From positions 1,241,327-1,305,326 of the forward strand of contig NZ_KI911318.1 in the NCBI RefSeq assembly GCF_000513855.1: a DNA stretch of 64,000 nt, given 5' to 3'. Source of the DNA: Desulfurococcus amylolyticus Z-533. GTDB taxonomy: Archaea > Thermoproteota > Thermoprotei_A > Sulfolobales > Desulfurococcaceae. The notes below the pieces were generated by a model. The model searched no databases. It worked only from the letters and a program-made list of their open reading frames with translations, and was not told the DNA's origin. Shown here in pieces: positions 27,050 to 62,819 of the stretch (position 1 is the first letter of the stretch; each line of letters begins with the position of its first letter). The position numbers and the translations under genes are program-made.

Positions 27050-27766
27050 CTACGGCCCATTGAGCCGCTGGGGTTGATGCGGCTTCCCGAGCCTCGAGTA
27101 GTAGTCGCATACGTGTGTTAGGGGGCACCCTGCGCACTTGGGGCTTCGGGCTCTGCAGTACTTTCTCGCTATGTCGAAAACCCCGTAGTTGAACTCCCTG
27201 GCCAGCTGTGGGTCGGAGGGCACTAGGGCTCTAGCGAAGTCCCAGAGCCGGAGGTCCCTGTGTGGCCTCCTCCTGGTCGACCTGACGCCGAACACCCTCT
27301 CGATAACCCTTATCATGTTCGTGTCCAAGAGGGGCTCCGGCCTGCCGCAGGCCGCTAGCAGGACCTCCGACGCGGCATAGTCCCCCACGCCCGGGAGCTC
27401 CTTGAGCTCTTCCCTGCTACAGGGGACCCTGCCCCCGAACCTCCTCTCGATTTGCTCGGCCAGCTCCTTGAGTTGCCTGGCCCTCACGTGCTCCAAGCCC
27501 AGGGGCCGTATGAGCTCCCTCACCTCGTCCTCGCCGGCGGACAAGAGGGCCCCCGGGCTGGGGTAGCGCTTCAGGAACTCCTCGTAGACCTTAACGACCT
27601 TGCTCTTGGACGTCCTCCTCAGGAGGAAGACCGCTACGAGCACGTGCCAGGGGTTCCTCGCGGTCCTCCAGGGGAGGCTCTTATCCCCGTGGCTCCTGTA
27701 CCACTCGACAACAGCCTCCCGGAACGCCCTAACCCTATCGTTGAACGCCGGGTCGAAGAACCACAC
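27050..27766 (-). CDS. Mig/MutY-type HhH-GPD DNA glycosylase with Fe-S cluster
   Basis: A base-excision DNA glycosylase of the Endo III superfamily. SLPWRTARNPWHVL is followed by VFLLRRTSKSKV; the helix-hairpin-helix is LKELPGVGDYAASEVLLA; catalytic Asp lies in LLDTNMIRVIERVFG; four cysteines follow the C-X6-C-X2-C-X5-C rule in CRARSPKCAGCPLTHVC. A Tyr follows the HhH (GDY), where Mig thymine-DNA glycosylase of Methanothermobacter has Tyr, Endo III has Lys and MutY usually Ser, so I favour T/G or U/G mismatch repair. I chose GTG 27766 (GGAGGG upstream); the frame extends to 27814. Confidence 0.8.
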   Translation of the reverse strand: MWFFDPAFNDRVRAFREAVVEWYRSHGDKSLPWRTARNPWHVLVAVFLLRRTSKSKVVKVYEEFLKRYPSPGALLSAGEDEVRELIRPLGLEHVRARQLKELAEQIERRFGGRVPCSREELKELPGVGDYAASEVLLAACGRPEPLLDTNMIRVIERVFGVRSTRRRPHRDLRLWDFARALVPSDPQLAREFNYGVFDIARKYCRARSPKCAGCPLTHVCDYYSRLGKPHQPQRLNGP

Positions 27767-27798
27767 CTTCCAAACCCTCCGAGCCCGCAAGCCATCTG

Positions 27799-28302
27799 TT
27801 AAACACGGAGGCACCAGGATAAATACCTAACCCCTGGCGGCGGGCCCGCACCTCCGCCTCCCGCCCCGGCCCGCTCCCTCAGCCTCTTCAAGTAATCCGC
27901 GAGGGCCTTCTCGAGGTAGTAGAGCCTGTGGAGCGCGAGCATAACCGCGTTGTAGTTTATGTCGACGTCGATCGAGTTCCTACCCAGGAGCTTTGCCTCT
28001 ACCAGCGTAGTCCCGCTACCCACCATGGGGTCTAGTACTACGTCACCGGGCCTCGTGTACATGGGTATGAGCGCCCTGGGGATCTGCGGCGCCCAGTTGC
28101 CCCTGTAGTCCCCCCTGTGGGTGGCCCAGCTCCCCCTGACCGGGAAGCTCCAGACCGTTGTCGACACGTCTGTGAGCTCCTCTGGGAGGGGCTCTAGCCG
28201 CTTGACTTCTATAGGGTCGAGCCTTATCACCTGGTCTTCGACAACGACCTCCCTGTTTCTAGAGACGAACTCGAGGTACTCGCTTAAAGGGACCTCTCGC
28301 AT
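27799..28302 (-). CDS. Truncated DNA N4/N6-amino methyltransferase-like protein
   Basis: From ATG 28302 the protein has 167 residues. It contains TTVWSFPVRGSWATHRGDYR, NWAPQIPRALIPMYT, the SAM-binding motif VVLDPMVGSGTTLVEAKLLG, and then NSIDVDINYNAV. These belong to an archaeal amino-methyltransferase family in which a [DNS]PP[YFW] catalytic motif should follow. Here the protein ends in a glycine/proline-rich tail (GAGGGGAGPPPG) without that motif, just before the glycosylase. It is probably a truncated, inactive remnant, or needs a partner. An upstream extension to 28461 looks non-native. Confidence 0.65.
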   Translation of the reverse strand: MREVPLSEYLEFVSRNREVVVEDQVIRLDPIEVKRLEPLPEELTDVSTTVWSFPVRGSWATHRGDYRGNWAPQIPRALIPMYTRPGDVVLDPMVGSGTTLVEAKLLGRNSIDVDINYNAVMLALHRLYYLEKALADYLKRLRERAGAGGGGAGPPPGVRYLSWCLRV

Positions 28303-28510
28303 CCCCACCACTCCTAGAGATGTGCCGGCGCGGCGATAAGCCCTACGCCAGCACTCTGCAACCAAGTAGTCTAGCAACCCGATAAAACCGGACTGCCCGG
28401 AGCAGGGTCGCCTGACCCGGCCAGATCCAGCAGACAGAAGGCGGGTCCTCAAGCGGCGCAAGCCTGAACAGCGTTCTCGGGTAGGAAGGGGGTGAGGGAA
28501 GGCCGCGCTG

Positions 28511-52600: not shown

Positions 52601-53313
52601 CGGGCACGCATGAAGCAATAAGGCCTGTCTACCCCTACGATCTCGACGACTTGTTGAAGGCTGTATCTGAGGGAGTGATTAACACCGTGATACCTTTAAC
52701 AGGGATGCACTTAAAGCTCTACGACCTAATATTCAAGCGGTTCATCTCAAGCCAGCTGAAGCCGTTTAAAGCCGTTAAATCTATTTACGCAGTATACTTC
52801 GACGAGTTTAAACTCGGCGAGATAGAGTTGCTAACCAACATAGTTGAGGAGGGCTTCAACGTCTTCGAGAAAACCAGAGTTTACAAGGAGCTGGATGCCG
52901 TGGAATCCATTGAAGTCCCCGTGGAAGAGATATCCGTGGTGGATTCAAGTAAATCGCCGCTCTTCACTGAGGGTGAATTAGTTTCATTGATGAAGAAACT
53001 AGGCCTTGGAAGGCCAAGCACCTACTCGAAGATAATTGAGAGCATTAAAAGGCATGGCTATGTATTCGTCTCGAAGAAGAGACTAAAGCTTATTCCATCT
53101 AAGAGAGGAATAGAGGTCTATGGGTATCTCAGGGATAGATACCCCGAACTAGTATCTATTGAGGCCACGCGAAGGCTCGAGGAATCAATAGATAAGATAA
53201 TCAATGGTGAAGTAGATGCATTGGTTTACCTTACTGACATAGGGTCCAAGCTAAACATGTTTCATTCAATCAACATGGTTAATAGAGGCGACTTCGCTAG
53301 TACTTCCTCCTGA
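49675..53313 (+). CDS. rgy: Reverse gyrase
   Basis: A 1212-residue fusion of a helicase-like and a type IA topoisomerase module that introduces positive supercoils, a hallmark of hyperthermophiles. An N-terminal zinc finger (CPVCGG and CSRCA, residues 14-34), Walker A APTGMGKTTLL near 88, and motif II ADDVDS form the first half. TOPRIM starts at VVVESPTKAKTIARFFGK near 616, a second zinc finger CRLCG/CPRCG is near 703-720, TDPDIEGEKIA follows, and the catalytic Tyr is in LITYHRTDSHYVS near 940. TTG start. Its 3' end overlaps the convergent Alba2 gene by 17 bp. Confidence 0.96.
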   Translation: MPGAFNPLYKGFCPVCGGDILSSEVELRGFCSRCANSGLTSILRDITSSGLGDFEEFFRRASNGLSVWGAQKIWAKRLVSGENTVLIAPTGMGKTTLLIIYSLYAARRGKRVVYITPTRTLLTQIHRRLVEAAERTGINGVNLIAYDSSMSKKKREEVLSRIEKGEYSILVATNGFLSRKSELLSRSRPDIVIADDVDSVVRSEKNVLRLLRILGYSDEVIELAKKRISLLWRLMVNKAFNNNDKYAELVKEYIEVDSLIEKTLSSTRHAQFIVASATGRMKGLMGRILKELLHVDISGVTIYGRDVTDAYMLIKPGELHGELARIIEKLGPGGIIYIAPHHPFKNMLKEELDKAVNILADKGFRIGDATPGNVARLIKGELDILTGSASYYGSSVRGIDAPEAIRYVVFIGSPVFATSLESLLANPGMMIRVLLELVDSNDARNRVLELRRLLYTLTPGEVRLVKLALTGKILEEALQASEKLYSKYQVIKQYYRETLERTRSILDEKGIMDIGTLTLVRAGGDYYALIPDVMTYIQASGRTSRLYGSRMTHGLSIVFEYRALYNTVKGLEARLKGLNKELVFIDLASVDLDSEIKAIESSRRNNDSSPGMSYRSILVVVESPTKAKTIARFFGKPVARKLGDVTVYEIPVKIGGEIIHLNIVPTRGHIFDLTTGEEGYYGVVIADNRVTPVYEYIKKCRLCGTQFTTGDHCPRCGSRLFSDSRTIVAALRKIAGEVDEVYIATDPDIEGEKIAYDVYLAVKYYNEKVWRIELHEITLQEFLKAINNKRGINQRLVEGEIYRRVLDRLVGFKLSQELQGIYGLRFLGAGRVQTPTLGLVIDRYEEYMRNKCKKIRFKLGSPLNIIYSVFMGKNSEVIRELKTAKMLKLVRVGREIVTITPKPPYTTDELLSDAAKLNLHTGIVMSIAQQLFEAGLITYHRTDSHYVSNTGIGIAMKYIEGKKLEDYARPSHWGSPGTHEAIRPVYPYDLDDLLKAVSEGVINTVIPLTGMHLKLYDLIFKRFISSQLKPFKAVKSIYAVYFDEFKLGEIELLTNIVEEGFNVFEKTRVYKELDAVESIEVPVEEISVVDSSKSPLFTEGELVSLMKKLGLGRPSTYSKIIESIKRHGYVFVSKKRLKLIPSKRGIEVYGYLRDRYPELVSIEATRRLEESIDKIINGEVDALVYLTDIGSKLNMFHSINMVNRGDFASTSS

Positions 53314-53572
53314 TCTCGATAACTATATAGGGTTTAATCCTACCGCGAACCTTCTCACTCCCGATCCCTATGTTGACGAGCTCGATACTGCTCCCCATCC
53401 TGGAGACAAGCATGTTGTATAGGTCAACAGCCCTACTTATATTGGGGCCGACGCCCTTTAAAACGAGCTTGTCGCTACCCTCCTGGAACATTAATATTAC
53501 CTCTACAATGTAATCCTCAAGTGGTTTTTTGCCAATATTCAGGATTCTCACCGAATCCACATGTTTCACCAT
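53297..53572 (-). CDS. Second Alba paralogue (Alba2 type)
   Basis: From ATG 53572 (MVKHVDSVRILNIGKKPLED) the protein has 91 residues. NIGKKPLEDYIVEVILMFQ, LKGVGPNISRAVDLYNML and the hairpin region IGIGSEKVRGRIKPYIVIEI give the Alba fold with the divergent features of Alba2, which dimerises with Alba1 and condenses DNA. The frame extends to 53683, but that part overlaps repeat DNA and lacks similarity. It is convergent with reverse gyrase. Confidence 0.88.
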   Translation of the reverse strand: MVKHVDSVRILNIGKKPLEDYIVEVILMFQEGSDKLVLKGVGPNISRAVDLYNMLVSRMGSSIELVNIGIGSEKVRGRIKPYIVIEIRRKY

Positions 53573-53614: not shown

Positions 53615-54090
53615 TGAAGCCTCCAGTGGAAACAAGGGGGTAGAACCGAAACTTCTGGTGTATGATTGCGACTGGAAAACCATAGGTGATCAATCATAAA
53701 CCTCTGGTTCCAGGGTTGGAATGCGACTGGAGTGGGGCGGATCTTCAATAGACTTCACTTTTTTCCCACTCGAAGAACTTTTGGTTCCAGGGGTAGGATG
53801 CCGGTGGAACAGGAGGTCCAAGACCCCCACCCCTTCACTTCCACTGCAAATCAATATCGAAGAAACTCCATTAATCAATTATATTGAAGAGATCGCAGTC
53901 TTTAGTTTGTATAATGATATATTTGTATAATGATTGATCAACTAATGAGATCACTTAATTAGTCATTTTAATAAATCATAAGGTTATAGTCTCCAGTGGA
54001 AGTGAAGGGGTGGGGGTTTCCATTGGGGTTTATAAACTGATCTTAATTGAAACCTAAGGTTCTACCCCTAGGTTGCCGGTGGAAAAGACT
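53615..54090. repeat. Cluster of related 25-30 bp motifs in both orientations
   Basis: Plus-strand units start GGTTCCAGGGTTGGAATGCG (near 53706), GGTTCCAGGGGTAGGATGCC (near 53783) and GGTTCTACCCCTAGGTTGCC (near 54058), each followed by ACTGGA or GGTGGAA. A further GATTGCGACTGGAAAACC is near 53666. On the minus strand, GGTTCTACCCCCTTGTTTCC then ACTGGAGG lies near 53620-53650. Spacing is irregular (about 45-270 bp). The stretch is non-coding and directly precedes RNase P RNA. It could be mobile-element debris or a degenerate repeat array. Confidence 0.6.
53823..54017. repeat. Perfect 24-bp inverted repeat with AT-rich interior
   Basis: The bases at 53823-53846 (ACCCCCACCCCTTCACTT followed by CCACTG) are the exact reverse complement of 53994-54017. 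The 147-bp interior is very A/T-rich and has no coding frame. Perfect conservation of long arms in otherwise non-coding DNA suggests recent mobility, like the ends of a miniature transposable element, or a strong hairpin. Confidence 0.75.
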
Positions 54091-54182: not shown

Positions 54183-54502
54183 GCGGCCGGGTGCCCCACC
54201 AACGCTCCGGATATGTGATGGAGTGAGGAAACTCCGCACTCCCCGTGGCAGTATGGCCCCGAAAGGGGCACGGGTAGTCCCCGTGGCTCCGGCACAGAAA
54301 CGACACGGCCACCACCATGTGGCGATGAAATGAGTGGCCTCTGGCAACAGGGGTCTTAAGTCATGGAGGACGGTGGTGGAGGCGTTGAAACGGCCGTCCC
54401 GTACGGAGCAAGGCCCGGTCCCGGGGTGAGGGCCACGCGACCGGTGTGGGCCGCATAGACGAATGTGGGGTTGAAACAGAATGCGGGTTACTACCCGGCC
54501 GC
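54183..54502 (+). ncRNA. rnpB: RNase P RNA
   Basis: This 320-nt RNA is closed by GCGGCCGGG (54183-54191) pairing with CCCGGCCGC (54494-54502), the P1 helix. GAGTGAGGAAACTCCGCACT near 54221 corresponds to the conserved GAGGAAAGUCC region, ACAGAAACGACAC lies near 54293, and GAAACAGAATGCGGGTTACT near 54475 corresponds to the conserved ACAGAA...GGCUUAC segment that completes the P4 core. It is the catalytic RNA that matures tRNA 5' ends. A TTTAATT/ATTAAAA A/T-rich promoter region precedes it. Confidence 0.88.
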
Positions 54503-55798: not shown

Positions 55799-55902
55799 TG
55801 GACCGGCCGGGACTTGAACCCGGGACCTCCGCCTTTCCTCGACCTCGGTGCAGCCTGGAAGCCATGCAAGGGCGGCGCTCTTCCAGGCTGAGCTACCGGC
55901 CC
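55799..55902 (-). tRNA. tRNA-Ala (anticodon TGC) with intron
   Basis: The acceptor GGGCCGG (complement of 55896-55902) pairs with CCGGTCC, with A73 at 55799. The T arm is CCCGGGTTCAAGTCCCGG. The anticodon stem CCGCC/GGCGG encloses CTTGCA plus about 30 extra bases, so an intron follows position 37; the anticodon reads TGC. The intron contains TTCCAGGCTG, the exact reverse complement of CAGCCTGGAA in the D arm. Confidence 0.88.
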
Positions 55903-62717: not shown

Positions 62718-62819
62718 AGCCGCCGGCGGGATTTGAACCCGCGTCCACCGGCTTTCCAGCGACTCCGGTTAAATAAGCCGATACGAGGCCGGCGCTCCAC
62801 CGGGCTGAGCTACGGCGGC
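62718..62819 (-). tRNA. tRNA-Thr (anticodon CGT) with intron
   Basis: The acceptor GCCGCCG (complement of 62813-62819) pairs with CGGCGGC, and the discriminator is U73, usual for archaeal threonine tRNAs. The T arm is GCGGGTTCAAATCCCGC. The anticodon stem CCGGC/GCCGG encloses CTCGTA plus about 27 extra bases, giving anticodon CGT and an intron at 37/38. Its 5' end lies 57 bp from the tnpB stop. Confidence 0.88.

Follow-up and report, generated by a model that had tools for sequence, protein, structure and literature searches.

A probable oriC1-type replication origin beside the RNase P RNA gene of Desulfurococcus, apparently separated from its initiator gene

The oriC1 of archaea is usually found next to an initiator gene and at an extreme of nucleotide skew, neither feature being a defining one. 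In Sulfolobus oriC1, Orc1-1 bound with a defined polarity to outward-facing origin recognition boxes (ORBs) recruits MCM to an AT-rich stretch, a ucm-binding protein sits between the hexamers, and the ucm motif itself was experimentally demonstrated to be essential (PMC12141716). An archaeal ORB consensus, TCCA[CG]T[TG]GAAA[TC][GA]AAGGGGT, was provided with Ori-Finder 2 (PMC4164010), independently of the genome analysed here.

The analysed window, a 64,000-nucleotide stretch of Desulfurococcus amylolyticus Z-533 DNA, comprised bases 1,241,327–1,305,326 of a single 1,307,099-bp contig. The locus under study, a cluster of repeats considered here as a candidate origin, was located near 1,295 kb of this 1,307-kb contig. 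Its left neighbour was an Alba-family gene (53297–53572, minus strand), assigned on the basis of the Pfam Alba match and conserved synteny, and its right neighbour was rnpB encoding the RNase P RNA (54183–54502, plus strand; Rfam RF00373, 184 bits). The most likely start of alba, chosen from homologues, was 53572, which leaves the repeats outside the gene. At their 3' ends, alba and the convergent reverse gyrase gene overlapped by 17 bp (53297–53313). The region carrying the repeats contained only short, mutually overlapping ORFs, in agreement with the preliminary description of it as noncoding. Scans for bacterial-type promoters and terminators gave results at the chance level only. Elsewhere in the window, adjacent frames with similarity to a DNA glycosylase of the endonuclease III/MutY type and to a DNA methyltransferase were noticed by eye in a segment of raised GC (27050–28461) and are possibly an acquired modification and mismatch-repair pair. 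Two tRNA matches of 102–104 nt (55799–55902 and 62718–62819), detected by Rfam and not by ARAGORN, are probably intron-containing tRNA genes.

The preliminary description reported GGTTC[CT]A...TGGA motifs in both orientations and with irregular spacing, together with a perfect 24-bp inverted repeat, and all these features were found in the sequence. The motifs were identified at 53706–53731, 53783–53808 and 54058–54083 with a related inverted copy at 53622–53647, and the arms of the inverted repeat (53823–53846 and 53994–54017) were 100% complementary and 147 bp apart. The clustering exceeded chance, with four motifs in the window against 0.15 expected. Two further members of the family, outside the original grouping, were the element at 53651–53676 and the 24-bp arms themselves. 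Realignment of the region spanning 53622–54083 resulted in seven related 26-bp elements (E1–E7) of one motif family. In leave-one-out scoring, all seven outscored every other position of the window on both strands.

Four elements fitted the published ORB consensus with one to four mismatches. E1 (53622–53647, plus strand; TCCAGTGGAAACAAGGGGGTAGAACC) and E6 (53992–54017, plus strand) had one mismatch each, E5 (53823–53848, minus strand) had two and E7 (54058–54083, minus strand; TCCACCGGCAACCTAGGGGTAGAACC) had four. The next matches in the window were isolated and had at least four mismatches. The remaining ORB-like elements, all on the minus strand, were the degenerate E2 (53651–53676; TCCAGTCGCAATCATACACCAGAAGT), the leave-one-out score of which (14.6) was unmatched elsewhere in the window, E3 (53706–53731; TCCAGTCGCATTCCAACCCTGGAACC) and E4 (53783–53808; TCCACCGGCATCCTACCCCTGGAACC). 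The assignment of E3, E4 and E7 relied also on the motif counts in the window and the genome. Judged by their sequence, the seven motifs are one family, recognized here as ORBs. The perfect 24-bp inverted repeat consists of two of them, E5 containing the left arm and E6 the right one, which face outward around 143 bp with 24% GC.

The ORB cluster was confined to one place in the 1.307-Mb genome. With at most one mismatch allowed, the consensus was matched three times genome-wide, always in this cluster; a relaxed pattern with up to three mismatches gave three matches here and four scattered singles, a number of singles equal to that in the reversed control. Over 61 genomes, 41 ORB matches were obtained versus none for the reversed control. 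A stricter form of the GGTTC[CT]A...TGGA pattern likewise occurred only here (three matches versus none for the reversed control) and no second copy of the 24-bp arm was detected in the genome. Miniature transposable elements or a degraded CRISPR-like array, to which a perfect inverted repeat and the occurrence of repeats in either orientation might point, had been among the candidates proposed earlier. Neither arm nor motif has a second genomic copy, which excludes a mobile element; moreover, the same position and layout were found in diverged relatives, where the site of a presumed miniature inverted-repeat transposable element was already occupied, and the motif is the known ORB. Regular direct repeats with unique spacers, typical of a CRISPR array, were not observed, and a degraded array is contradicted by both orientations, the irregular spacing and the fit of four elements to the ORB consensus. 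The mobile or CRISPR-like explanation is therefore given a negligible probability and, from the list of candidates, only the replication-related structure was retained.

The stretch between E5 and E6 (53849–53991) is presumed to be the duplex-unwinding element, as an AT-rich segment occupied the same position between outward ORBs in relatives. It contained two copies of the ucm motif, both on the plus strand. Copy 1 (GTTTGTATAAT, 53905–53915) matched the Sulfolobus oriC1 ucm at 11/11 positions and copy 2 (ATTTGTATAAT, 53921–53931) at 10/11, the Sulfolobus sequence being derived from the wild-type and mutant oligonucleotides used in PMC12141716. Both copies were kept in two congeneric genomes. 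The conservation of this recently characterised motif extends well outside Sulfolobus, and Desulfurococcus carries it twice. The exact 13-base form, GTTTGTATAATGA, occurred once in this genome, at the origin candidate. In two related genomes, G015 and G023, which are probably Staphylothermus (G015 probably Staphylothermus hellenicus), 6 and 11 exact copies were counted, with 0–1 in the reversed control. The copies inspected there away from rnpB (L081, L082, L096–L099, near position 1501) were inside a dispersed repeat with TTCGAC...CTATAG blocks.

We consider the 53622–54083 region to be the oriC1-type chromosomal replication origin of a Desulfurococcus species with a probability of about 0.95. 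The observations on which this reading is based comprise the identity of the ORBs, their layout, the identity of the ucm motif, the uniqueness of the cluster in the genome, its conservation and an Orc1-1 orthologue encoded in the genome. From the work on Sulfolobus and Aeropyrum, binding, loading of MCM and firing would be expected. By analogy, Orc1-1, encoded about 125 kb away, would bind the ORB elements, and the E5/E6 pair, directed outward around the AT-rich stretch, would direct the loading of the MCM helicase there. As in Sulfolobus, a UBP-like protein would bind the two central ucm copies, and replication would then proceed in both directions.

The relatives used for comparison included Desulfurococcus mucosus (1,314,639 bp), Thermosphaera aggregans (1,316,595 bp), Ignisphaera aggregans (1,875,953 bp) and Pyrolobus fumarii (1,843,267 bp). 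In two congeneric genomes the region between alba and rnpB could be aligned, and each of its elements and the two ucm copies were present there; because these genomes shared the layout while the sequence had diverged, an assembly artefact was excluded. The order reverse gyrase–alba–[origin]–rnpB–tsr3–lrp–tRNA synthetase was kept, with minor differences in orientation, in 11 genomes including this one. Contig searches with reverse gyrase alone found no genome, and those with a reverse gyrase alignment found mostly distant genomes, none of which reached the applied threshold for the ORB–ucm–ORB composite. GGAACC/GGTTCC was enriched near the origin, and this enrichment was not general outside the genus.

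The composite was scored as the number of mismatches in ucm and in the nearest outward ORB on each side, lower values being better. The score was 1 in the window and 1–11 in 18 of 20 rnpB regions of relatives, and in 400 order-1 shuffles of the same loci it never fell below 14. The two exceptions were L059 (genome G016), with ORBs present and a more degenerate ucm, and L062 (G042), without an ORB cluster at rnpB. The exact ucm 13-mer was present, and rnpB detected, in 22 genomes; in 19 of these, a copy of the 13-mer was located within 3 kb of rnpB. Overall, the composite adjoined or was near rnpB in nearly all relatives examined.

The genes on either side of the repeats are transcribed divergently and their order is conserved; the repeats could accordingly be transcription-factor sites for the alba and rnpB promoters and not an origin. 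In several relatives, however, the composite was found across tsr3/lrp, 2–8 kb from rnpB (L045, L049, L166, L168–L172), and in G046, a genome from another family of the order, it was upstream of orc1-1. Such mobility, combined with retention of the origin-specific ucm, would not be expected of a local rnpB regulator. A regulatory role is very unlikely, given that the composite has no fixed position with respect to rnpB and contains this motif.

The genome contained two orc1/cdc6 genes, at 114 and 158 kb. The product of one was identified as the Orc1-1 orthologue, its best PDB match being A. pernix ORC1 (2v1u, E = 1e-122) with Cdc6-1 (2qby_A) also close, and for the second protein the closest chains were 1fnn (Cdc6) and 1w5s (ORC2). 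Assuming a circular contig, the genes are about 125 kb (Orc1-1) and 169 kb from the repeats. No orc1/cdc6 gene adjoined the repeats, which was counted against the origin reading, and neither ORB nor ucm was found beside either orc1/cdc6 gene of this genome. The records of the complete relatives D. mucosus, T. aggregans, I. aggregans and G015 were numbered from orc1-1, and no ORB pair or ucm was detected on either side of this gene in any of the four.

In G046, the ORB–ucm–ORB composite was placed directly upstream of the orc1-1 orthologue, 8 kb from rnpB–tsr3–lrp. A composite in this position is the arrangement known for the oriC1 of Sulfolobales. In several other genomes it was 2–5 kb away from rnpB, on the side of lrp. 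Since the G046 composite adjoins orc1-1 and is also only 8 kb from rnpB, the initiator gene and the origin appear to have been separated in Desulfurococcus. Most simply, the ancestral origin would have been located between rnpB–tsr3–lrp and orc1-1; the latter gene would have been relocated in Desulfurococcaceae, in most of which the origin would also have undergone a local shift across the small gene block. The shared rnpB–tsr3–lrp neighbourhood ties the Desulfurococcus origin to the orc1-1-linked origin of a more distant relative and suggests that it was the initiator gene, not the origin, that left the ancestral place.

The GC, AT, purine and keto skews, calculated from samples covering 34% of the genome, revealed no clean two-arm origin/terminus pattern. 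The cumulative GC curve from these samples turned near 1.28–1.29 Mb and the turn faded after removal of the overall trend. The lack of a clean pattern might be compatible with a dormant or relic origin, retaining the anatomy while initiation takes place elsewhere or replication is mostly origin-free. Precedents are available: dispensability of the origins is reported for Thermococcus kodakarensis (PMC5663688), and a dormant origin for Haloferax mediterranei (PMC4595724). The family-wide constraint on the sequence of ORB and ucm and on the layout speaks against dormancy, as does the fact that neither ORBs nor ucm formed a cluster anywhere else in the genome, and a dormant or relic origin is extremely improbable.

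Elements E2–E4 and E7 departed from the canonical ORB and are possibly weaker sites or sites for another ligand. In E4, the reverse complement ACCCCT, with a GGAACC tail behind it, stood in place of the AGGGGT G-tract of a normal ORB; the E4 counterpart in a congener (G002, L044, alignment A1) had AGGGGT in the normal orientation. It is conceivable, if rather unlikely, that the distal elements E2–E4 represent another class of sites with a function of their own. They could bind Orc1-1 in another mode or a second protein and, if so, would constitute a built-in control array for an origin with an unlinked initiator gene.

The proposed origin is a known kind of structure and an unlinked origin is already known from Aeropyrum; the present analysis would extend the separation of initiator and origin to another family. 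For Desulfurococcus, Thermosphaera, Ignisphaera and relatives, it also specifies precisely an origin position that can be tested; the predicted origin is near 1,178.3 kb in the D. mucosus record and near 1,147.7 kb in that of T. aggregans. No description of a family-wide unlinked initiator and rnpB neighbourhood was found in the literature searched, a search that did not cover the 2007 paper on the A. pernix origins. As this key paper was outside the search, part of the finding may have been published already.

The Desulfurococcus locus resembles Sulfolobus oriC1, with its ORB3–DUE–ORB2 arrangement and ucm (PMC12141716), in the inverted ORBs around an AT-rich region and in the central ucm matching at all 11 positions. 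The rnpB–tsr3–lrp neighbourhood is shared with the syntenic origin upstream of orc1-1 in G046. In contrast to Sulfolobus, orc1-1 is not adjacent to the origin here, seven ORB-like elements are present instead of three, and ucm occurs in two copies, one being described for Sulfolobus. Aeropyrum pernix oriC1 belongs to the same order, Desulfurococcales, has ORBs of the type bound by Orc1-1/Cdc6-1 and also contains ucm (PMC12141716), and neither cdc6 gene of A. pernix adjoins its origins (PMC5333045). A. pernix has, however, a second, WhiP-dependent origin (PMC10769869), whereas no second ORB/ucm cluster was seen in this genome. The oriC1 of Pyrococcus and haloarchaea differs from the Desulfurococcus locus in adjoining the initiator gene (PMC4010727) and resembles it in the ORB elements placed around an AT-rich region and in the G-rich end of the ORB.
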